Shown here: positions 106-32,673 of the stretch, piece by piece | Position numbering within the stretch: the first letter of the stretch is position 1 | Layout: each line of letters opens with the position of its first letter | Source: a virus | Virus record (IMG/VR): IMGVR_UViG_3300034378_000015 | Location: 1 to 37,931 of that record | Reading direction: 5' to 3' (one strand) | Length of the DNA: 37,931 bases | Translations under genes and position numbers: made by a program | The notes under the pieces: model-generated | Databases searched by the model: none | Told to the model about the DNA's origin: nothing | What the model saw: the letters and a program-made list of their open reading frames with translations, nothing else

Positions 106-2559
106 TCATGCGTTGGTTTCCCCGAAATCAGCAAACGTCTTAATGATATTCCCTTCCGAATCCTTTTTCAAGATGAAAACATCTTGCGTGTAATCGGGAT
201 CGCGGTACTTGTCCATATTCCACATCAACCCACGCCGCCGGTTCTTACCCTTATGCGGGTATATTTTGATTTCTTCGGACATTTCCGGTATCATCTTAGA
301 TCGGATCATATTGCGTATGATAGACGGCGCATTTCGTCCTGTACGGCCCCCGAAGCCGTCAATACATTCAATGGCCCATACCGAAATAACTTGATTCTGC
401 AACCATGCACAATGCGCTTCCGGGTCAATAGCTAAGTCTCGCAATCGTTGCGCGAAATGATCCCGTATGACGTTGGCTTCTTCAACTTCGCCGTCGGCAT
501 CCGCTTGCCGCGCCGTGTTGCTTTTGAATGCCTCAGAATACGCGCCAAGGCTTCCAACCGTCGGCGCAAGCACTTCAAGTTCCCATGTACGGAATCGCGT
601 TGCCGGGCGAAATTCAAAGCCCGCACCGCGTTCAAGAATTCCGATTATATCCGCAATGACTTGCAAGCGATTCTCTTTGAGATATTGCACAATTTCGGTT
701 GCCCACTTCGCGCTAGGATTTTCCGGCATTTTCAAGTGAATGAAAAATGAACGGCTTACAAGATCGCGGTCAACTGTCGCGTTGTTTGAAGTGATAACAT
801 ACGTTAGATCATTCTGCCGGGTTTCTTCGCCGCGTCCGTATGGTGCCATGCCGGATATTGCCGATTGCGTCAACAGCGTTGCCAACGCCGGGCTTTTGAA
901 ATAGCCCACAACATTATCAAGCAACATAATTCGTTTCTCGCGCCCGGTACGGCTCAAAATTCGGCGTGTTACGCGGTCAAGTGTTGTTTCGTTGTTTAAC
1001 TGTTTGTAATCAACATCAAGCGTTTCGCCGCTGCTTCCCGATCCGCCATAAAGCAACGCGACCATTTGAACAAGTTTGGTTTTGCCCACGCCTTGACCGT
1101 CCTTGGAATCTATCACCCACAAAGGCCGATCAACTCGCGGTTTGAAATATAACGGGCTTGCAATGAACACGCGAAGCAAGCTTGCATCGTGATCCGTTGC
1201 GGGCGCAAAGAAGTCGCAAAACCTATTGAAATATTTTCCATCTTCCGTTGGTTCCGGCATCTTGCCATGCTTGTAATATACATCATCACGCACCGGCCAA
1301 TTAGGTACATCCGAAACCATATCATATACCGGCGCATTTGCGTGCATGCTGCAAAAAAATTGTTCGTAAGTAAGGCAACCTTCAATTTGCTTTGCCCATT
1401 CAACAACATGCCCGGATTTCTCAGCAATCCAAGCTATCAAATCGGATGAAGTTGCTAGGTAACGCACTTCATTTGTATCCCGGTCAACATCAAACATTGT
1501 GCCGCCGATACGCAACGGAAAGCCCCAAAACCGCCGCTTCACATCGGCAAGCATTGCCTTTACATGGCGGGGTTGTTTGACGTTCTTTTTCTTACCTTTT
1601 GCATCGGCCCGCAACACCATCTCAAAATTACTGAACGGCACGCGGTTTGCTTTTTTCGCTTCGGAAATCTGCTTTTGCGATATTCGCGGTTGATCCATTG
1701 TCTTTATGTCAACCGGCTTCGTTGCCTTAATTATCGCATGCAGTTTTTCCCGCGTGCCGCCAGTGTTCAGCCAATCCGAAACATCGCCTTTGTGCGGTAA
1801 ATCCGGCAAATGGATAATCTTAATTTGCCGGGCGATACCGCGCAAAGCAAACGCAACCACTTCCGCATGCTTCCGGCCCGGATCGTCGTTATCGGGGATG
1901 ATGCAAACAAACTTGCCTTGGAATCGCGTGTTGTAATGTTCGCGCCAATTGCCTTCGCCCATCGGGTTTGTTGTTGCCGGGATTTTCGCGGCAAGCAATC
2001 TATCGGCGTCCTTTTCGCCGCCCACAACGCAAACCCATGATGAAGTAAGCCAATCGGCAAGCCGGTATAAGATTGGCGTTATGCCTTTTAGATCGTAAAT
2101 CCATTTGCCGGGGTTTGCCGAATCGGGGCGGCGTTGTGAAAATTCCTTCGGTTCCCAACGCACGGTTTGATGAATGAGATTGCCCTGCAAATCGCAATAA
2201 TCGTATGAGCAAACAAACTTGCGCTTTTGCTTCGCCTGTTTCGCCGGTTCAAGTGAAAGCAATTCGCCAAGGAATTCTTGCGCTTGCCACAAGTCGCCGT
2301 CAAATTTCGCGTTTGCGATTAAGTCAAGTGCGCTGCCTGATTCCCCGGAAACATGATCTTTGAAACCTTGCCGCCGCACGGAGAATGCGCCGGAATCGCT
2401 GCCGGATCGCCAAGGATTGTTGAAACGTGCCCATTCGCCGGATTCGCCTTGTTGCTGCATGCCAAGTTGCGTCTTGCATAGGTCAACGCAATCGGCTTTA
2501 TCCTTAATTTGCTGCCAGTCGTAAATCTTCATTCGGCATGAACTTTCAATGCTTCCCAT
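106..2559 (-). CDS. Phage primase-helicase (Toprim plus D5/SF3-like ATPase)
   Basis: An 817-residue protein expected to prime and unwind DNA at the phage origin. Residues about 25-100 resemble the zinc-binding region of bacterial primases but lack its cysteines. A Toprim domain follows, with GEKDADRL (about 180) and PDNDDPGRKHAE (about 222). The C-terminal half is an AAA/SF3-type ATPase with Walker A GQGVGKTK (about 488) and Walker B-like RIMLLDNV (about 543). The start at 2559 has AGGA close upstream and overlaps the RecD2 ATPase gene by 14 bases. A second ATG at 2532 (starting MKIYDW) is equally plausible. It is the last gene of the early operon. The family assignment is firm; detailed biochemistry is inferred. 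Confidence 0.9.
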   Translation of the reverse strand: MGSIESSCRMKIYDWQQIKDKADCVDLCKTQLGMQQQGESGEWARFNNPWRSGSDSGAFSVRRQGFKDHVSGESGSALDLIANAKFDGDLWQAQEFLGELLSLEPAKQAKQKRKFVCSYDYCDLQGNLIHQTVRWEPKEFSQRRPDSANPGKWIYDLKGITPILYRLADWLTSSWVCVVGGEKDADRLLAAKIPATTNPMGEGNWREHYNTRFQGKFVCIIPDNDDPGRKHAEVVAFALRGIARQIKIIHLPDLPHKGDVSDWLNTGGTREKLHAIIKATKPVDIKTMDQPRISQKQISEAKKANRVPFSNFEMVLRADAKGKKKNVKQPRHVKAMLADVKRRFWGFPLRIGGTMFDVDRDTNEVRYLATSSDLIAWIAEKSGHVVEWAKQIEGCLTYEQFFCSMHANAPVYDMVSDVPNWPVRDDVYYKHGKMPEPTEDGKYFNRFCDFFAPATDHDASLLRVFIASPLYFKPRVDRPLWVIDSKDGQGVGKTKLVQMVALLYGGSGSSGETLDVDYKQLNNETTLDRVTRRILSRTGREKRIMLLDNVVGYFKSPALATLLTQSAISGMAPYGRGEETRQNDLTYVITSNNATVDRDLVSRSFFIHLKMPENPSAKWATEIVQYLKENRLQVIADIIGILERGAGFEFRPATRFRTWELEVLAPTVGSLGAYSEAFKSNTARQADADGEVEEANVIRDHFAQRLRDLAIDPEAHCAWLQNQVISVWAIECIDGFGGRTGRNAPSIIRNMIRSKMIPEMSEEIKIYPHKGKNRRRGLMWNMDKYRDPDYTQDVFILKKDSEGNIIKTFADFGETNA

Positions 2560-3679
2560 CTTTTCCTAGTATCTGCAACACCGTGCATTTCGTTTCCACA
2601 TTCTGAATTCCATGATAGAACGCGCTCAAATTCCCCATCACACAAACACCTTCCTTCGCCCGCGTTATCGCCGTATAGATCAAGCTGCGTGAAAGCATGT
2701 GCCAATGCCGCCGGAAGCAGACAAAGAACACGCGCCGCATTTGTGATCCTTGCGCCTTATGCACACTCAAACAATATGCAAGCGTCATTTCGGCCCGTTG
2801 CGCTTTCGTCAAGTGCCGGGTTTCCGTGCCCCGGTCAAGATCAATGAACGGCAAGCCTTGCGTGTCAATTTCAACGATTGTGCCAAGATCGCCATTCCAC
2901 AAATCATCGGTTCCGAAATTCTTGTTGATGATAACTCGATCCTTCACGGCAAACGGTTCAACACTCGGATTTAAGATTTCCTTTACCATTGCATTTGCCG
3001 CCCGGATACCCCCATCTTCGGTTTCCCCGCTGCCGTACATCGGCGCAAGGATTATATCTTGCATCGGATCGAAATACCCGGCTTTGATCCATTCGGCAAG
3101 TTGCGCGAAAGTTCGGCCCGGCCCGCCGGTTTCAACCATGCGCCAAGATTCGCCGCCGGATTTGTCGGCTTGCATCGGGATTTGTCCGGCGCGGATCGCG
3201 CTTGCGGCTTTATGCACCGCGCCTTGCGCCCGGTAGCAAGTTGTCAATGTCGCAACACGATCCGGGCGCAAGTTGATTAAATCGTGAAACGGTTGTCCTT
3301 TGCCAACCGGCGGCAATTGTGCGGCATCGCCCACAAGGATTAGCGGCTCCGGGTTGAATTCAAGAATCTTCGCCATAAGCCACGCATCAATCATGCTTGA
3401 TTCGTCTATGATTACCGGGCACTTGAAGGGGCTTTGTCTGTGAAATCGCACACTATCCCACATCAAATTTCTGTGGATCGTACAGGCATCGTGCCCCGTT
3501 GCTTGCTTCAATCTTGCCGCCGCCTTACCTGTTGGGCACATCAACTCTGCACGTTTGAGTTTATCGGCAATGTGCTTGATGATGCTCGTTTTTCCCGTAC
3601 CAGCCGACCCATTCACCACGCAATCACGGCCTTGTAAGGCAAATTCGACAGCGGCAAGTTGACTTTGATCCAATTGCAT
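2546..3679 (-). CDS. RecD2-type SF1 helicase, ATPase half
   Basis: This 377-residue protein is the motor part of a RecD2-like 5'-3' helicase. It has Walker A GSAGTGKTS (about 23-31), the DEAD-like VIIDESSM (about 90), motif III LVGDAAQLPPVG (about 115), an SH3-like insertion, and the C-terminal SVHKAQGSQ and YTAITRAKEG motifs. Canonical RecD2 is a single chain of about 700 or more residues with an OB/helix-hairpin-helix N-terminal part. Here that part is encoded separately at 3845-4702. The start ATG overlaps the stop of the small gene before it (TAATG), so translation is probably coupled. Role inferred: replication or recombination of the phage genome. Confidence 0.92.
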   Translation of the reverse strand: MQLDQSQLAAVEFALQGRDCVVNGSAGTGKTSIIKHIADKLKRAELMCPTGKAAARLKQATGHDACTIHRNLMWDSVRFHRQSPFKCPVIIDESSMIDAWLMAKILEFNPEPLILVGDAAQLPPVGKGQPFHDLINLRPDRVATLTTCYRAQGAVHKAASAIRAGQIPMQADKSGGESWRMVETGGPGRTFAQLAEWIKAGYFDPMQDIILAPMYGSGETEDGGIRAANAMVKEILNPSVEPFAVKDRVIINKNFGTDDLWNGDLGTIVEIDTQGLPFIDLDRGTETRHLTKAQRAEMTLAYCLSVHKAQGSQMRRVFFVCFRRHWHMLSRSLIYTAITRAKEGVCVMGNLSAFYHGIQNVETKCTVLQILGKDGKH

Positions 3680-3858
3680 TATTCTGATTTGCTCTGTTTC
3701 GGCTTCTTCACCTTCAACACTTCTTGCGCTTCCACTTCGCGCAAGGTGATTACCACACCTTCAAGCTTGATCGAATTGCGGCCCGCGCTGTGCATTTGCG
3801 CATCGGCACGTTTGCATTCCGATTCAAGTATGCGCAAAGCATCTTTACGGCTTATCAT
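3679..3858 (-). CDS. Small protein between the two RecD2 halves
   Basis: A 59-residue Lys/Glu-rich protein with a basic C-terminus (KVKKPKQSKSE). The start at 3858 is chosen because AAAGGTGG sits just upstream, whereas the longer frame to 3888 has no such site. It overlaps the N-terminal RecD2 gene by 14 bases and the ATPase gene by one base, so it is embedded in the same translational unit. No known domain is recognised. Its position suggests a linker or bridging partner of the split helicase, but that is only inference. Confidence 0.75.
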   Translation of the reverse strand: MISRKDALRILESECKRADAQMHSAGRNSIKLEGVVITLREVEAQEVLKVKKPKQSKSE

Positions 3859-4702
3859 TGCCCCACCTTTCCCATATCGCATCTTCATTCACATAATCTT
3901 GCGCCAAAGCAAGTCCTTCCGCGCTACCAACACGCATGATCTTTTCCGCCCGGATCAATACTTCAATGCGATCATTGAATTTACCGTCATGTGGCACAAG
4001 TGTTCGTGTTTCCGCCGATACAAAACTTTGCGCAATGCAAGTACCGTATTTTTCCGCAAGTTGATTCAGCATATATAAAATTGCCGCGTCAATCCGGCGC
4101 GAATCATTCGCCGCAATCCCGAATTTCGGCCTTACATTCTCATCAATCCATTTGAAACCGTATCGCGGCAAATCGCAAAGCTTATACGGATCGGCGTTGA
4201 CCATTCCAAGCGTATCATGTTTCCACGTTTCCCATGCCAACGTTGCAAGATTCAACGTGCAACCATGCGCCAACAAGAATGCAATCGCCTGCGTTTGTTC
4301 GGCTTGTTCTTTCAATCGCCGCAAGGTATCGGCCCAATGGAATTGCGTGCTTTCGCCAACGCCAGACAAATCAAGCGTTTCCTGCTGCTGCCAATCCGCG
4401 CCGTATTTTTCCCAAATCGCAACTTCCTTCGCCGCGCCAAGCCCTTTCGTCAAGCTTACGGCATAGGTAAGAAGCACACGCGGATCATCCGGCAAGTGAA
4501 GCATTGCGCCCCGGAAATCAAATTCATCCTTGCCGTTAAATTCCGAATGCTGCCATTTCCCTTCAAGCTTCACCCAATCGCCTTCTTTCACATCAAAGGA
4601 AATCACGCCTTTGATCGTGCCTTTGTCGGTAAGGGCGATAGTCCAAAAGGAATCTTCCTTGCGGTACGCGATATGTTCAATTTGTGCGATTAGGGTTTCC
4701 AT
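3845..4702 (-). CDS. RecD2-type helicase, N-terminal OB/HhH half
   Basis: A 285-residue protein that matches the non-catalytic N-terminal part of RecD2. Residues 1-75 form an OB-like beta region (IEHIAYRKEDSFWTIAL). Residues about 80-225 carry the helix-hairpin-helix area, including NADPYKLCDLPRYGFKWID and the RRIDAAILYMLNQ segment that is typical of RecD2. There is no Walker motif. It probably pairs with the ATPase at 2546-3679 to rebuild one helicase. The 3' end overlaps the small gene at 3679-3858, and the 5' end overlaps the ERCC4 nuclease by 26 bases. Confidence 0.88.
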   Translation of the reverse strand: METLIAQIEHIAYRKEDSFWTIALTDKGTIKGVISFDVKEGDWVKLEGKWQHSEFNGKDEFDFRGAMLHLPDDPRVLLTYAVSLTKGLGAAKEVAIWEKYGADWQQQETLDLSGVGESTQFHWADTLRRLKEQAEQTQAIAFLLAHGCTLNLATLAWETWKHDTLGMVNADPYKLCDLPRYGFKWIDENVRPKFGIAANDSRRIDAAILYMLNQLAEKYGTCIAQSFVSAETRTLVPHDGKFNDRIEVLIRAEKIMRVGSAEGLALAQDYVNEDAIWERWGNDKP

Positions 4703-25770: not shown

Positions 25771-27642
25771 TCACAGCCGGATACTATTAGGATCAATCCA
25801 AACCTTCCGGCTTTTCTTCGGCTTGGAATCCTGTTCTGATTTTTGCGCTTCACCTTGCGCTTCCGAAAGTTCAACGTCCATCTTTTCCACCGGTTGCATA
25901 CGATAAAGCCCGGTAATACACGCGGCAAGATATTGCAGCACTTCAACGTCAAACATATGGTTTGCCGCCCGGATTTTCTCAAATGCCCCATCAACGCTTT
26001 TCTCTGCCGTCACTTGCTGCACATATTCGCCTTCAATTCCATCATACACAAACCAATGCCGTTCCGATTGCCCGCGCATCATCGTTGTTAATCCCGCCTT
26101 CAATTGATTCGGATTGAACGTATAACTTGGAATTGATTTGCGGCCTTGTCGCCGCGTGCCTTCGTATGGATCAATCATGTTTTTCGCATACGGCATTTGT
26201 AATGTATCACGCCCAAAGCAAGGAATCAATTTCAATCGCAAACACCAATCGAACACTTCAATGCGCCGTCCGGCGTAGCTGTTATCAATCAAGCGCAAAC
26301 GCGAATTGAATTTGCCCATGATTTCCTCGACTTCGCGCCAAGACACAATCGGCCCCCAATCGCGCAAGCCGGAATCGCCGCCTTCCAACCAACGCCGCAC
26401 CAACCACCATAAATGCGTTTTCTGAACGTCAATCGTTAGGAAGTCAACGAATCGCCGCTTGATGAAAATGTTGCGAAGCCCCGGCGTTTCGGTAAACGAT
26501 TCACCGCGCTTATATTCCGTTTGCCGGTCATAGATCACGCTTGCTTTCGTTTCGTCAACATTCATCTTCCATTCTTCGGCAAGATACTCATACACAAAAA
26601 CGCGCCATTGTTCAAACCCGGCTTTCTTCGCCTGCAAAAACGCAACGGCAACTTCCCCAAAATCGCCATTGCGGAAAGGCGATATGAAGCAATTGGCAAT
26701 GTAACCGCGCTTCCAAGGCAACGCTTCGCGGTGTGTTAAATACCATTTGCCGGTATGCGCAATCTTCAACCGATCACGGTTCAAAATCGTTGTGCCTTGC
26801 GGCGTGATGTAATGCGCCGAATCATAAACGCGCTGCAAATCCCATTCGCCATTTTTCCGCTTCGCTTTCGCCGTCCACTTCAAGCCAAACGGCGTTTTGC
26901 TGTCGCCAAGCAAGTATTCAAATGTTTGCCGCCGCCGGTAACGCGGCTCCGGCATCCTCCATTTCCTTTGATCGGTATTATCCATTTCGTAAAAGATCGG
27001 ATCGAGACTTGATCGCCGCCGCTGTTGCGGATCGGGCGAAGAATTGAAAACCGCTTTGCAATCTTGATATGTGTCCATGCGCTTGCGAATCATCCCTGGC
27101 GCGGTGTTCGGAAGCAACGAGCATTCTTCAACGAATATCCGGCCCCAACCGAATTGCTTGAACGCGCCTTTGTTGCGCGGCGGAATCGCCCGCAAAATCA
27201 TGTTGTCAAAGTAAAGCGTGTTTTCCTTTTCTCGCGCATCCTGCATCTTCGGCCCGGCGGATTCGCTGCATTCCAAGCCCGGCTTGATCCGTTCTTCCCA
27301 AAACGCATTTGTGCTTTTCTCATCACAAGAAAGAAACAGCGTGTTCACCGGGGAAACCGCAACAAGGTATCGAATCGGATTCAACACAAGGCTTTCACTC
27401 GCGCCGAATCGGGAAGGCTTACGAAACCATATTTCCCTAATTTCCGGGTCTTGCAAATCCTGCACCGGTTCTTTCATGTACGGGGCGAAATCAGGATCAT
27501 ACGGCCCGGAAAGCTCTTGCGGTATGTCGTATGAAGGTACAAGATCAAAGTCAACATCATGCGCGGCCCATTGCCAAATGTGTTCGCGCTTTGTCGGCGT
27601 ATAAGTTCGTTTAACAGTTTGTTTGGTTGCTTTGAGCATCAT
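25771..27642 (-). CDS. terL: Terminase large subunit (gpA-type)
   Basis: A 623-residue packaging motor and nuclease of the lambda gpA type. The ATPase part has IWFRKPSRFGASES (about residue 70), equivalent to the lambda KSARVGYSK P-loop variant, and FLSCDEKSTNAFWEERIKPG. The nuclease half has FLTIDVQKTHLWWLVRRW (about 400) and RLIDNSYAGRRIEVF. The start at 27642 lies 11 bases after the methyltransferase-fragment stop; a longer frame to 27717 begins with TTG. It works with TerS at 27807-28253. Confidence 0.9.
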   Translation of the reverse strand: MMLKATKQTVKRTYTPTKREHIWQWAAHDVDFDLVPSYDIPQELSGPYDPDFAPYMKEPVQDLQDPEIREIWFRKPSRFGASESLVLNPIRYLVAVSPVNTLFLSCDEKSTNAFWEERIKPGLECSESAGPKMQDAREKENTLYFDNMILRAIPPRNKGAFKQFGWGRIFVEECSLLPNTAPGMIRKRMDTYQDCKAVFNSSPDPQQRRRSSLDPIFYEMDNTDQRKWRMPEPRYRRRQTFEYLLGDSKTPFGLKWTAKAKRKNGEWDLQRVYDSAHYITPQGTTILNRDRLKIAHTGKWYLTHREALPWKRGYIANCFISPFRNGDFGEVAVAFLQAKKAGFEQWRVFVYEYLAEEWKMNVDETKASVIYDRQTEYKRGESFTETPGLRNIFIKRRFVDFLTIDVQKTHLWWLVRRWLEGGDSGLRDWGPIVSWREVEEIMGKFNSRLRLIDNSYAGRRIEVFDWCLRLKLIPCFGRDTLQMPYAKNMIDPYEGTRRQGRKSIPSYTFNPNQLKAGLTTMMRGQSERHWFVYDGIEGEYVQQVTAEKSVDGAFEKIRAANHMFDVEVLQYLAACITGLYRMQPVEKMDVELSEAQGEAQKSEQDSKPKKSRKVWIDPNSIRL

Positions 27643-27652
27643 GCGCCCAAGT

Positions 27653-27814
27653 TCAATACTTCTTGCTGCATACGCTTGCCGCAATCTCGCAATACTTTTC
27701 TTCAATCTCAATGCCAATTGCCTTGCGGTTCAAATCCTTCGCGGCCCGAAGCGTTGTGCCGCTTCCCATGAAGGGGTCAAGCACGATTTCGTTTTGATAA
27801 TATGTTTCAAGCAT
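27653..27814 (-). CDS. C-terminal fragment of a DNA methyltransferase
   Basis: A 53-residue frame carrying [15 protein letters not shown] (residues 11-25) and [15 protein letters not shown] (32-46). These are the SAM-binding motif I and following strand that end beta-type N4/N6 DNA methyltransferases. The catalytic (D/S)PP(Y/W) half that should precede it is missing; TerS occupies that place. Its ATG overlaps the TerS stop by eight bases, so it is still translatable. It may be a relic of a replaced methyltransferase or a small SAM-binding protein. Confidence 0.65.
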
Positions 27815-28253
27815 TATCAATCGCCCGCTGCAACCGCCGCAAAATCCGCCGCGAAATCCGTTCCGCTTCCTTCCCAAGCTTCTTATCCTTCGCCCGCGAT
27901 ATGTCCACAAACTGCCGCATCCCATCCGCCACAATTTGCGCATGCGTTTGAATTTCAAGCAAATGATCTTCAATCGGCATGCGCTGCCCTTGTTCCCGCG
28001 CAAGCTTTTCCCGCAACAGCATATTGCGCAATTGTAACTGTTCTTCCGCCGCTTCGCTTTTGCCGTTGCTTCGCCGTTTCTCGTCAAGCTTCCGATCAAT
28101 GAACGCTTTGCATTTCGCTATGTTGAAACCGCGCTTCGTTTTCGCCGGGAAGCCGGGCTTGTTCAACCAATTCGCATGCAAGGCTTGCGGTGATCTTCCG
28201 ACTTCATCCGCCAATGCCTTGACTGTCGGCGCATATTCCGTTTCGGTTGCCAT
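27807..28253 (-). CDS. Terminase small subunit (Nu1-like)
   Basis: A 148-residue protein with an N-terminal winged-helix-like segment ([19 protein letters not shown]), a central helix ([19 protein letters not shown]) and a basic C-terminus ([16 protein letters not shown]). This layout and its place upstream of gpA-type TerL fit Nu1-type small terminases, which recognise the packaging site. It is joined to the SAM methyltransferase gene (TGA then ATG) and to the fragment downstream. Confidence 0.78.
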
Positions 28254-28847
28254 TCACCAATTCAACTCCGTAATCTCACCGTCAAATTCAAACCGTTTCG
28301 CATCCGCCCAATTCAAACCTTCGGGCAAATCTTCATCCGTCACTTGCCCTTTCGCAAATGGCATATGCGGCGCAACAATCACGCTTATGTTGTAATCGTA
28401 TTTCCGCACCGCCGCATTCCTGCAATTGATCCCGGCGGCGGCAAGCCGATACAACAGTAAACCCGCATTCCATAACGACAAATGCCCGGATACAATTTGC
28501 GGTTTTATCGGCGGCACGGTGATTGCCAGCACGCCGCCCACCTTCAACGCGCCGGAAATCCTTTCGAGAAAATGCCCCACGTTTTCTTGATGCTCCAAAA
28601 CGTGACAACACCAAACGCAATCGAACGCGCCCCGATAGAAATCATGCCAGCTGAAATCGCCATGTATGATTTCAATTCCTTTGTTGCCTTCATGTTCCGG
28701 CATTTCTCGTAAATCAATCGCCGTAACTTTCTTCCCCGCCCGCGCAAATGCCCTTGCCGCATTGCCTCGGCCCGCGCCAATATCAAGCACGGTTTCAAAC
28801 TCGTAATCACGCAACAGTTTCTTCAACGCTTGATCGCCGTACATCAT
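28254..28847 (-). CDS. Class I SAM-dependent methyltransferase
   Basis: A 197-residue Rossmann methyltransferase with motif I VLDIGAGRGNAARAF (about 20-34), acidic residue in TAIDLRE, HGDFSW (motif II/III), CCHVLEHQENV and LKVGGVLAITVPP. The C-terminal third is specific and could bind the acceptor. The family (type 11) acts on small molecules, sugars or lipids rather than DNA. It overlaps the GT29 gene by four bases, so a joint role in glycan modification is likely. Confidence 0.85.
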   Translation of the reverse strand: MMYGDQALKKLLRDYEFETVLDIGAGRGNAARAFARAGKKVTAIDLREMPEHEGNKGIEIIHGDFSWHDFYRGAFDCVWCCHVLEHQENVGHFLERISGALKVGGVLAITVPPIKPQIVSGHLSLWNAGLLLYRLAAAGINCRNAAVRKYDYNISVIVAPHMPFAKGQVTDEDLPEGLNWADAKRFEFDGEITELNW

Positions 28848-29461
28848 AATTCAAATCCATGATACCGCACGCAATCCGGCTTGTTCGCCTTGATCCATGC
28901 GCGTTCTTTGTCCAAATCATGCAAGCCCATCATCTTGCCGGGCCTTTTGCCGTAATAAACTGTGCGGGGTTTTGTCGGTATATACGCATAACTCCAATCC
29001 GGCGTTGTGAAAAAATCCATGCCGTACATATCCACAATCGCGCATTGCGTTTGACTCCAAAGCCATACCATTACCGCCGCGCCGTTCGTCGGCACGCAAT
29101 CCATTTCTTGCCCAAGCTGCATGATGAATTCCGGCGGGAATCGCACAACCCAATTCGCCAACCCCGGCCACATATCCACAACATCAATCCAAGGCCAAAG
29201 CACATATTTCAATTCATCCCACAAGACTTCAAAGCCGCGCCGGTGCAAGTCTTGACTTCGCGTTGCGCAACACCAACAATCCGTTCGCTTGCCGACATCC
29301 GGCCAAAACACTTCACGCGGCCATGCCCAATTGAAGCGCACAACAATATCATGCGCATCAATCTCCGCACCTTGCCCACGCCCAAAGACATTTTCGCCGC
29401 CAGCAACGCACGCAATATGCTTGCCGTTGCAATAGGAATTGAATTCGTCAATTGTCGGCAT
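28844..29461 (-). CDS. GT29 sialyltransferase-like glycosyltransferase
   Basis: A 205-residue protein with the three sialyltransferase motifs in order. L-motif: ACVAGGENVFGRGQG then EIDAHDIVVRFN (residues 17-44). S-motif: PTNGAAVMVWLW then VDMYGMDFF (124-151). VS-motif: H181-x4-E186 in GLHDLDKERAW. There is no membrane anchor, so it would act in the cytoplasm. GT29 enzymes transfer CMP-activated sugars; the donor here is unknown. ATG 29461 with AGGGG upstream is preferred over a TTG at 29467. It sits beside a methyltransferase in the packaging block, an unusual place. Confidence 0.8.
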   Translation of the reverse strand: MPTIDEFNSYCNGKHIACVAGGENVFGRGQGAEIDAHDIVVRFNWAWPREVFWPDVGKRTDCWCCATRSQDLHRRGFEVLWDELKYVLWPWIDVVDMWPGLANWVVRFPPEFIMQLGQEMDCVPTNGAAVMVWLWSQTQCAIVDMYGMDFFTTPDWSYAYIPTKPRTVYYGKRPGKMMGLHDLDKERAWIKANKPDCVRYHGFEL

Positions 29462-29732
29462 CAACAACCCCTAACCGCTTCAACCGATTCCGCCGCTTCC
29501 GTGCCGTTTTCTTCGTCGGCTTCCCCGCACCCATCGCTTTTGGCATTTCGGGAAATGGACATTTCTTCACAAATTCAACGCGCCCGCAACGCGGGCATAT
29601 CCCATGCACCTTTTCAACCTTGCGTCGCTGCCAATTATCGAATTGATCCGGCACAACTTCATACGCAACGGAAACTTCCAATTGCGCCGGGCGAAAAGTC
29701 TCGCTTCCATAATGGCAAATGTTACACCACAT
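29448..29732 (-). CDS. Zinc-binding phage protein
   Basis: A 94-residue protein with MWCNICHYG at the start and GICPRCGRVEFVKKC after residue 45, giving two Cys pairs that could bind one zinc. The C-terminus is very basic (KKTARKRRNRLKRL). AAAGG lies correctly before the ATG at 29732. It overlaps the GT29 start by 14 bases. Probably nucleic-acid binding; function unknown. Confidence 0.7.
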   Translation of the reverse strand: MWCNICHYGSETFRPAQLEVSVAYEVVPDQFDNWQRRKVEKVHGICPRCGRVEFVKKCPFPEMPKAMGAGKPTKKTARKRRNRLKRLGVVDADN

Positions 29733-29735
29733 CAA

Positions 29736-30053
29736 TCAACCTTTCGCCCGCTTGATTATCCGGGCATCACGGCAAATCTCGCGCACGTTGGCAACATAGT
29801 TCTTGAAATTCCCGGCATGCCCAACCTCACAATGCAACTTCGCATGAAGCGTGATGAAGTTACTTTCATCCGCCGCCCTGCCCGGCGCATACGCAATCGG
29901 TTCAATATGATGAATATGGCAAGGCCCGGTTCTGCCGGAATATTCGCAAGCCGGACGCTTCCGCCGGTACGCTTCCATTGCCTTGCGCGTTGCCCACGCT
30001 TTGCGCGGGCTTTTGATGCAATATACCGGATGTCGGAAAAAGAAGTTCGCCAT
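29736..30053 (-). CDS. HNH endonuclease
   Basis: A 105-residue protein with CEYSGRTGPCHIHHIEP (about 35-51) and NFITLHAKLHCEVGHAGN (about 63-80). The His-His pair, the Asn and the final His form an HNH active site. HNH proteins next to terminase genes help cleave cohesive ends in several phages, and that role fits here. The start at 30053 has AAAGGTTGGGC upstream and follows the stop of the 47-residue frame by one base. Confidence 0.85.
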   Translation of the reverse strand: MANFFFRHPVYCIKSPRKAWATRKAMEAYRRKRPACEYSGRTGPCHIHHIEPIAYAPGRAADESNFITLHAKLHCEVGHAGNFKNYVANVREICRDARIIKRAKG

Positions 30054-30054
30054 T

Positions 30055-30198
30055 TCAGCCCAACCTTTCATTGCAATGCTCAAACCGCAACACATACGGC
30101 ACTTCATCCGCGCCGCCCATAGCCTCAATGTATGCCTCACGATATATCCGGCAGATTTGCCAACTACCTAAATGTTGGCCGTATTGCGATTGCTCCAT
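30055..30198 (-). CDS. 47-residue protein overlapping two neighbours
   Basis: An ATG at 30198 opens a 47-residue frame (starting MEQSQYGQHLGSW and containing CRIYREAYIEAMGG and a closing RFEHCNERLG). Residue usage looks protein-like and the stop lies one base before the HNH start. Its first 31 bases overlap the upstream gene in another frame. The ribosome site is weak (TTTTGG). It explains an otherwise empty 114-bp gap. Confidence 0.6.
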   Translation of the reverse strand: MEQSQYGQHLGSWQICRIYREAYIEAMGGADEVPYVLRFEHCNERLG

Positions 30199-31671: not shown

Positions 31672-31913
31672 TGCTGGATCATGCGTGTTTGCATATCCAT
31701 CATTTCCAGCCACCAGCGAGGCTCGGTGTTGCTCCACGGTGTCGCCGCATCAATCGCCTTCACCCTGTCGATAAACTCTTGCCTGAGCGTTTCCCACGCA
31801 GCAGAACAATCGGATCGAGATGTATCCAATGTCCCGCGCATTTTGCGACACGAAGCGTTTACACATCGTCCACACTCGCACCAGTAGTGCGACCCGCATT
31901 CACATATCTCGGC
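31635..31913 (-). CDS. Zinc-binding cassette protein
   Basis: A 92-residue protein with MAEICECGSHYWCECGRC at the start, a dense Cys cluster fit for one zinc, then helices with SRSDCSAAWETLRQEF and WWLEMMDMQTRMIQQQ. The start at 31913 is preferred because the same leader (GGAAAGGATGAGTGTT then ATG) precedes the gene at 32983-33285. It overlaps the methyltransferase end by 14 bases. Function unknown. Confidence 0.65.
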   Translation of the reverse strand, partial: AEICECGSHYWCECGRCVNASCRKMRGTLDTSRSDCSAAWETLRQEFIDRVKAIDAATPWSNTEPRWWLEMMDMQTRMIQQQNAEHDTRHEA

Positions 31914-32673
31914 CATTGGAACACTCATCCTTTCCGTTCTCATGCCTTTGCAGTGCCAACCCGATTGCAAGTGCAACCTGCGGCACGACTGCGTTTCCAA
32001 GTGCCGTCACTCTATCAGCGTATGATCCTGCGGGAACCCCATCACCAATTCTATCAGGCGCGGGTGGGGCTTGTACCCATACATCCATGCGTTGTTCTGC
32101 AATTCCGTCGAGTATCGCGCTCTGCCCGTTTTGCTTAGGCCCCACCCCCTTTTCCCCATCGAGCCGGTTGGGGTAGGCAAGCAGAAAGACACGCTCCCGC
32201 AGATGACAGGCACCGCAGTCTGCCGCAGATAGCACTTGCCACTCCGCATCATACCCGACCTCGGCCAGGGAGCCGAGTACGGCTCCCATGTCTCGAACAA
32301 GGAGCCCTGGTACGTTCTCCACGAGCGCGTATCGTGGTCGTAGAATGCGAATGATTCTGAGCATTTCAAACCAGAGCGAGCTTCGGGCTCCTTGTTCAAG
32401 ACCCTCTCGCAGGCCGGCAAGTGACAAGTCTTGACAGGGGAACCCGCCGCACACAATGTCGGCGCTCCAGTCCTTTCCGTCTTCTGGCGGGAATGTTCTG
32501 ACATTGTCCCATCTCCTCACGTTTGGCCAGTGCTTCTCAAGCACGCGCCGACAATACTCATTCTGTTCCACTTGCCATGCGCAACGGAAGCCGGACTGCT
32601 CAAGGCCGAGGTCCAGTCCACCAATCCCGGCGAACAAACTCCCGAAACGAAGTGGGGCATGAGAACAAGACAT
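31900..32673 (-). CDS. C5 cytosine DNA methyltransferase
   Basis: A 257-residue 5-methylcytosine methyltransferase. Motif I FAGIGGLDLGLEQSGF (about 14-29), motif IV CGGFPCQDLSLAG with the catalytic Cys (about 74), motif VI VENVPGLLV (about 118), motif VIII HLRERVFLLAY and motifs IX/X RVTALGNAVVPQ are all present. The target-recognition region is very short, as in compact phage enzymes. It may protect the phage from host restriction. The ATG at 32673 lies inside an attC-like site, with GGAGG nine bases upstream. Confidence 0.92.
   Translation of the reverse strand: MSCSHAPLRFGSLFAGIGGLDLGLEQSGFRCAWQVEQNEYCRRVLEKHWPNVRRWDNVRTFPPEDGKDWSADIVCGGFPCQDLSLAGLREGLEQGARSSLWFEMLRIIRILRPRYALVENVPGLLVRDMGAVLGSLAEVGYDAEWQVLSAADCGACHLRERVFLLAYPNRLDGEKGVGPKQNGQSAILDGIAEQRMDVWVQAPPAPDRIGDGVPAGSYADRVTALGNAVVPQVALAIGLALQRHENGKDECSNGRDM

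Follow-up and report, generated by a model that had tools for sequence, protein, structure and literature searches.

GT29 is known mainly as a family of animal sialyltransferases, and a gene resembling this family next to the terminase genes of a tailed phage raises the question of which sugar its product would transfer, and to which acceptor.

The gene and its surroundings

The window analyzed here is a whole IMG/VR virus record of 37,931 bases from environmental sequence data, and the record may itself be a fragment. The contig is that of a genuine tailed phage, with recognizable genes for a gpA-type large terminase, a portal, a head-protease fusion, a tape measure protein and a primase/helicase. 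The region of interest contains the following features.

25771..27717, minus strand: large terminase (gpA type; TerL), by family match
27807..28253, minus strand: presumed small terminase, placed by its position next to TerL only; no family match
28254..28847, minus strand: class I SAM methyltransferase (Methyltransf_11), 197 aa, by family match
28844..29461, minus strand: GT29-fold glycosyltransferase, 205 aa, by Pfam, profile, predicted structure and motif alignment
29448..29735, minus strand: Cys-rich (zinc-ribbon-like) ORF, 95 aa, by sequence; no family above cut-off
29736..30140, minus strand: HNH endonuclease (PHROG HNH, 7.6e-8)

The gene order is HNH endonuclease, Cys-rich ORF, GT29, methyltransferase, presumed small terminase and TerL. 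A location between the HNH nuclease and the small terminase, as given in an earlier sequence-only reading, fits this order, with the amendments that the 95-aa ORF and the methyltransferase intervene and that the small terminase is named from its position. The GT29 ORF runs from an ATG at 29461 to a TGA at 28844-28846, with AGGGG approximately 6 nt upstream of the ATG and an in-frame TTG at 29467 as an alternative start that would add two residues. The upstream 95-aa ORF overlaps the gene by 14 nt, and the overlap with the SAM methyltransferase reported earlier is indeed found, the stop codon sharing 4 nt (ATGA) with that downstream gene. The GC content (51.1%) and GC3 (0.56) are like those of the other genes of the phage. 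An antisense ORF of 298 aa (28859-29755, plus strand) was dismissed, as homology and gene direction favor the minus strand, and it is probably a by-product of codon bias. The original observation of a small, real enzyme gene is confirmed.

The 205-aa protein has no N-terminal hydrophobic segment, in agreement with the absence of a membrane anchor noted from the sequence. It thus lacks the anchor, as well as the disulfide between motifs L and S, of the animal enzymes; both are absent from bacterial GT29 proteins too (PMC5811610). Its description as unusually short holds in comparison with the mammalian enzymes only, as phage and bacterial GT29 domains measure approximately 168-250 aa and 205 aa is a normal prokaryotic length.

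No close relatives of the phage turned up in viral scans that used either the GT29 protein alone or TerL. Host assignment through relatives of TerL, portal and capsid was unsuccessful, and these relatives include phages of Gram-positive hosts. Elsewhere in the window, a RecD2-like helicase is encoded by two ORFs with a small ORF between them (2546-4702, minus strand; N-terminal part 3845-4702, C-terminal part 2546-3679), for which a natural split, an insertion or a frameshift is possible. A C5-cytosine DNA methyltransferase (31900-32673, minus strand) is overlapped by a long ORF in another frame (32007-32504, minus strand).

Family membership and predicted fold

The Pfam model for GT29 (PF00777) matched the protein with 40.8 bits (cut-off 23; E 2.3e-10), the matched stretch being motif L. 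For a family profile, 18 relatives were gathered from viral contigs, bacterial genomes and one plasmid. Built without the window protein, the profile gave this protein 106-113 bits across residues 4-191, where the best of 2000 shuffled controls reached 2.8 bits. Searched against PDB sequences, the profile of the whole set aligned along almost its entire length with every GT29 structure, the lowest E-value being 1e-23, and gave no other credible match. Neither PHROGs nor NCBIfam contained a model matching the GT29 protein.

An AlphaFold model of the protein (pLDDT 80.7, pTM 0.82; only the loop 164-178 below 50) placed GT29 structures at all of ranks 1-30 in Foldseek (E 2e-7 to 1e-4), the next match having an E-value of 1.8e-2. 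VIA gave Z-scores of 13.7-11.1 for GT29, led by 6APJ (Z 13.7; 189 residues, 3.2 A) and 2WNB (Z 13.5; 174 residues, 3.0 A), compared to approximately 10 for GT42 CstII and MptE-like HPPK. A second model from a wider alignment (pLDDT 78.0) left the ranking unchanged, with GT29 Z-scores of 14.1-11.5, and the variant GT-A fold of GT29 was found in both predicted models. The fold comparison with solved structures that had been suggested from the sequence therefore came out in favor of GT29, every solved member of which is matched first. Together, Pfam, the leave-one-out profile and the predicted structure bear out the claim of a phage-encoded GT29-fold protein, and the 205-aa protein is a member of this family.

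It is very improbable that we are dealing with an MptE-like (DUF115) or GT42 protein whose resemblance to GT29 is one of fold only. MptE-like proteins are frequent in phages, and HPPK/MptE and CstII do reach Z-scores of approximately 10, but those for GT29 are higher by 1 to 4 and the first 30 Foldseek ranks are all GT29. Moreover, Pfam and the search of the PDB with the family profile return GT29 only, no GT42 protein appeared in the sequence searches, and motif L and H-x4-E are specific. CstI and CstII of GT42 resemble the window protein in their related fold and His base, and are cytoplasmic bacterial enzymes; they differ in the lower Z-score and in the lack of sequence similarity detectable in our searches.

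Phage GT29 proteins are not unprecedented, as A0A6J5NLG3 (uncultured Caudovirales phage, 492 aa) is already in the databases. Both this protein and that of the huge phage LR756500 have a phage-encoded GT29 domain like the one described here, but they are 16-27% identical to it and the huge-phage gene lies beside Kdo genes. Bacterial GT29 proteins were described in 2018 (Petit et al., 2018; PMC5811610); like the window protein they are soluble, short members of the family, and they are mostly alphaproteobacterial, as are its Paracoccus and Rhizobium relatives. As the homologues are only 19-31% identical to the window protein, transfer of the donor by homology is weak. In the tree the window protein occupies a long branch on the viral and Paracoccus/Rhizobium side, without strong support, and no clade can be singled out with confidence as its nearest.

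Sialylmotifs and active site

Four sialylmotifs, not three, characterize the sialyltransferases of GT29 (L, S, III, and VS). Residues were mapped by profile alignment to porcine ST3Gal1, with the entry numbering taken as chain index + 45, which agrees with His302 and His319 (PMC4202792) and with Glu324 (PMC8433944) of that enzyme. Motif L is present at about residues 16-61, with N44 as the equivalent of Asn173 and Gly21 at the position of Asn150. Motif S (P-[ST]-x-G ... YG) is present at about 124-151 (P124-T-N-G127, Y146-G147), so that T125-N126-G127 corresponds to Ser271-Thr272-Gly273 and G147 to Gly291. The reading of H181 and E186 as the H-x4-E of motif VS stands, as they align with His319 and Glu324. 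For motif III (HYWE, with His302 in ST3Gal1), no His occurs between residues 150 and 180; the region is instead Tyr-rich (WSYAY and VYYG) and the loop reads FTTPDWSYAYIPTKPRTVYYGKRPGKMMGL. The statement that all three GT29 motifs are present is thus correct for L, S and VS, but it overlooks a fourth motif that has no His here, and the Asn150 position is Gly.

Set against porcine ST3Gal1 (2WNB) and human ST6GALNAC2 (6APJ/6APL), the window protein shares the fold (Z 13-14), motifs L, S and VS, the catalytic His-x4-Glu and the donor-motif Asn. It differs in its length of 205 aa, in the missing anchor and motif III His, in having Gly for Asn150 and Thr/Asn for Ser271/Thr272, and in an identity of 22-23%. 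Judged from the alignment, it has probably lost one GT29 catalytic histidine.

Conservation was counted in 31 sampled phage and bacterial GT29 domains. Residues G31, I34, D35, R42, G57, G127, and G147 are kept in all of them, N44 in 28, the VS His (H181) in 27 and the VS Glu (E186) in 25, whereas a motif III-like His with an aromatic neighbor occurs in only about a third. Neither a short phage clade (YGFDWKxTPTW...HDxxxE) nor the Paracoccus proteins have this His. As relatives likewise keep the VS pair and lose the motif III His, the loss would be a trait of the lineage and not a private lesion, and the protein looks like a short lineage variant rather than the product of a decayed gene. The bacterial GT29 set was reported with motifs L, S, III, and VS (PMC5811610), in contrast to the window protein and its short phage relatives, and the window gene is located in a phage.

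In porcine ST3Gal1, the H302A substitution yields an inactive enzyme that has turned into a sialoglycan-binding protein (PMC12274613). Since the His that is essential there is absent here, the window protein may have no activity or may serve to bind glycans. That it is a non-catalytic GT29-fold protein binding a sugar or CMP-sugar, for instance as a glycan-binding protein or decoy, would fit this precedent, the missing His and the Gly at the Asn150 position. We nevertheless consider it distinctly unlikely, as H181 and E186 are kept, also in most short viral and Paracoccus homologues without the motif III His, which suggests a working variant of the active site.

Donor, acceptor and possible role

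In the window we found no NeuB (PF03102), no CMP-ulosonate synthetase (PF02348) and no KdsA-type synthase (PF00793). With no donor-synthesis genes in the record, the phage would depend on its host for the donor, provided that the record is complete. The bacterial homologues that align best are 25-31% identical. Two of them are stand-alone 200-aa proteins in Paracoccus genomes, each of which has KdsB as its single CMP-sugar synthetase and no NeuB. The Rhizobium homologue among them carries a fused Capsule_synth (KpsC/KpsS-type) domain, in a genome with KdsB and without NeuB, whereas the genome of the Luteimicrobium homologue (approximately 30% identity; L012) has NeuB.

Among viruses, GT29 is found together with Kdo genes in the huge phage LR756500 and in its twin in IMG/VR (G001).

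LR756500.1 ~128000-142500, and L074 (G001:C1:390500-404500), one strand: huge-phage Kdo/GT29 stretch with most of the CMP-Kdo pathway

Here GT29, KdsA (334 bits, cut-off 314), KdsB (188 bits, cut-off 155), and a KdsD-like isomerase gene (158 bits, below the cut-off of 204) lie on one strand within 11 kb, and no NeuB was found in this phage. The stretch also contains several glycosyltransferases and methyltransferases; one of the glycosyltransferases is weakly KpsC-like and could be the Kdo user of the cassette. Phages G771 and G774, whose GT29 group is the viral group nearest the window by tree path, have KdsA (confirmed for G771) elsewhere on the contig than the GT29 cassette, and no NeuB. 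In four other viral GT29 lineages, the record that contains GT29 also encodes NeuB and a CMP-sugar synthetase, which in two of the lineages is PseF-like. NeuB is absent from 15 further viral GT29 records, among them those of the group closest by tree path. With Kdo genes accompanying some viral GT29 genes and NeuB others, donors differ within the family, and CMP-linked ulosonic acids are likely donors across phage GT29, with Kdo in some and nonulosonic acids in others. Genetic evidence makes the plant GT29 protein RCKT1 (RCKT1/MGP2) a Kdo transferase (PMC11288761), a precedent within the family for CMP-Kdo over CMP-sialic acid, although this is a plant Golgi enzyme with a pectin acceptor, assigned from mutant phenotype and modelling.

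KdsA genes in INPHARED records named as Acinetobacter phage were set aside: the one examined, in a record labelled MD-2021a (L080; CAKLQF020000008.1), lies in a pyrG-kdsA-eno arrangement, in a stretch that shows catabolic genes but not a single phage gene as far as it was seen, and the record looks like a bacterial contig filed as phage. Synechococcus phage S-SCSM2R encodes KdsA/KdsB, but the 18.7 kb stretch seen contains no GT29.

If the earlier designation as sialyltransferase-like is read to mean a CMP-sialic acid donor, it finds no support in the window, which has neither NeuB nor a CMP-sugar synthetase. The sugar moved is less likely to be sialic acid than one of its bacterial relatives, such as Kdo, and the label 'sialyltransferase' is not justified, while 'GT29-family, probable CMP-ulosonate (Kdo-like) transferase' is. 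For this phage we infer CMP-Kdo from the neighboring biology and the nearest relatives, which point to it or to another CMP-ulosonic acid. A Gram-positive host, as found for some relatives of the phage's structural and terminase genes, would not make CMP-Kdo, which counts against this donor. A true sialyltransferase-type enzyme using a host-made nonulosonic donor (CMP-Neu5Ac, CMP-legionaminic or CMP-pseudaminic acid) is an unlikely alternative. The four NeuB-bearing viral lineages, the Luteimicrobium genome and the fact that the best fold matches are CMP-sialic acid enzymes speak for such a donor, but the gene content of the window, of the Paracoccus and Rhizobium genomes and of the 15 further viral records speaks against it.

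With respect to the acceptor, most viral GT29 genes are located in sugar cassettes, with GT2, DegT aminotransferases, GDP-mannose dehydratase and NeuB. One such cassette (L078, 6953-13465, from G771; also L055-L058 and L063) contains three GT29 paralogues, two of them in tandem. Modification of host surface glycans is the usual role of phage sugar-cassette genes. Phage-encoded enzymes change the capsule in Acinetobacter (PMC12053666, PMC6586298), and marine viruses carry LPS genes (PMC5332604). A host surface glycan would be the most likely target, over a virion protein or a nucleotide sugar.

Glycosylation of a phage component (a virion protein or a modified DNA base) would fit the location of the gene in the packaging module, by the presumed small terminase and TerL. 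Other phage GT29 genes have comparable positions: together with a polysaccharide pyruvyltransferase, GT29 is inserted between TerL and portal in L052 (55-4543; order TerL, pyruvyltransferase, GT29, portal) and L051, and in L008 the order is GT29, sugar genes and TerL (packaging module). We regard this role as quite improbable, as most viral GT29 genes accompany surface-glycan-type enzymes and no hypermodified-base pathway was recognized among the window genes scanned. Nor is any GT29 enzyme known to use DNA, or a protein side chain directly, as its acceptor.

The methyltransferase next to the GT29 gene hints at a partnership, and the arrangement recurs in L007, L047, L048, and L050. However, methyltransferases make up 4 of 30 genes adjacent to GT29 versus approximately 8 of 121 other cassette genes, the latter an estimate from overlapping family tallies, so that adjacency is not above background (Fisher p 0.26). 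Relatives of the methyltransferase (42% identical) occur in a phage stretch without GT29, within the stretch seen.

Taken together, we favor, with about even confidence, a cytoplasmic inverting GT29-fold enzyme that draws on a host CMP-Kdo or other CMP-ulosonic acid to modify a host surface glycan. Small and soluble, it would work in the host cytoplasm, where motifs L and S would bind a host-made CMP-ulosonic acid, most likely CMP-Kdo and otherwise a CMP-nonulosonic acid. With H181, and E186 nearby, as the base activating the acceptor hydroxyl, the enzyme would carry out an inverting transfer of the sugar, probably to a host surface glycan (LPS or capsule) that is lipid-linked or still growing. 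The surface of the infected cell would be changed as a result, and this glycan may be modified further by the neighboring methyltransferase.

More tentatively, and as a possibility that we would not yet favor, the short phage and Paracoccus/Rhizobium GT29 proteins might all be inverting Kdo transferases without the motif III His, in which Tyr, Lys and Arg of the loop (158-176) would stabilize the leaving-group phosphate, and which phages would use to re-decorate host surface glycans.

Neither a motif III-less phage lineage nor the co-occurrence of GT29 with Kdo synthesis genes was found in the literature searched. The motif III-less phage GT29 set, some of it with Kdo genes, offers a testable case for Kdo transfer as an ancestral or prokaryotic activity of the family. 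It may also point to small soluble enzymes for the synthesis of Kdo or sialic-acid glycans, and to a phage strategy that alters the surface glycans of the host.
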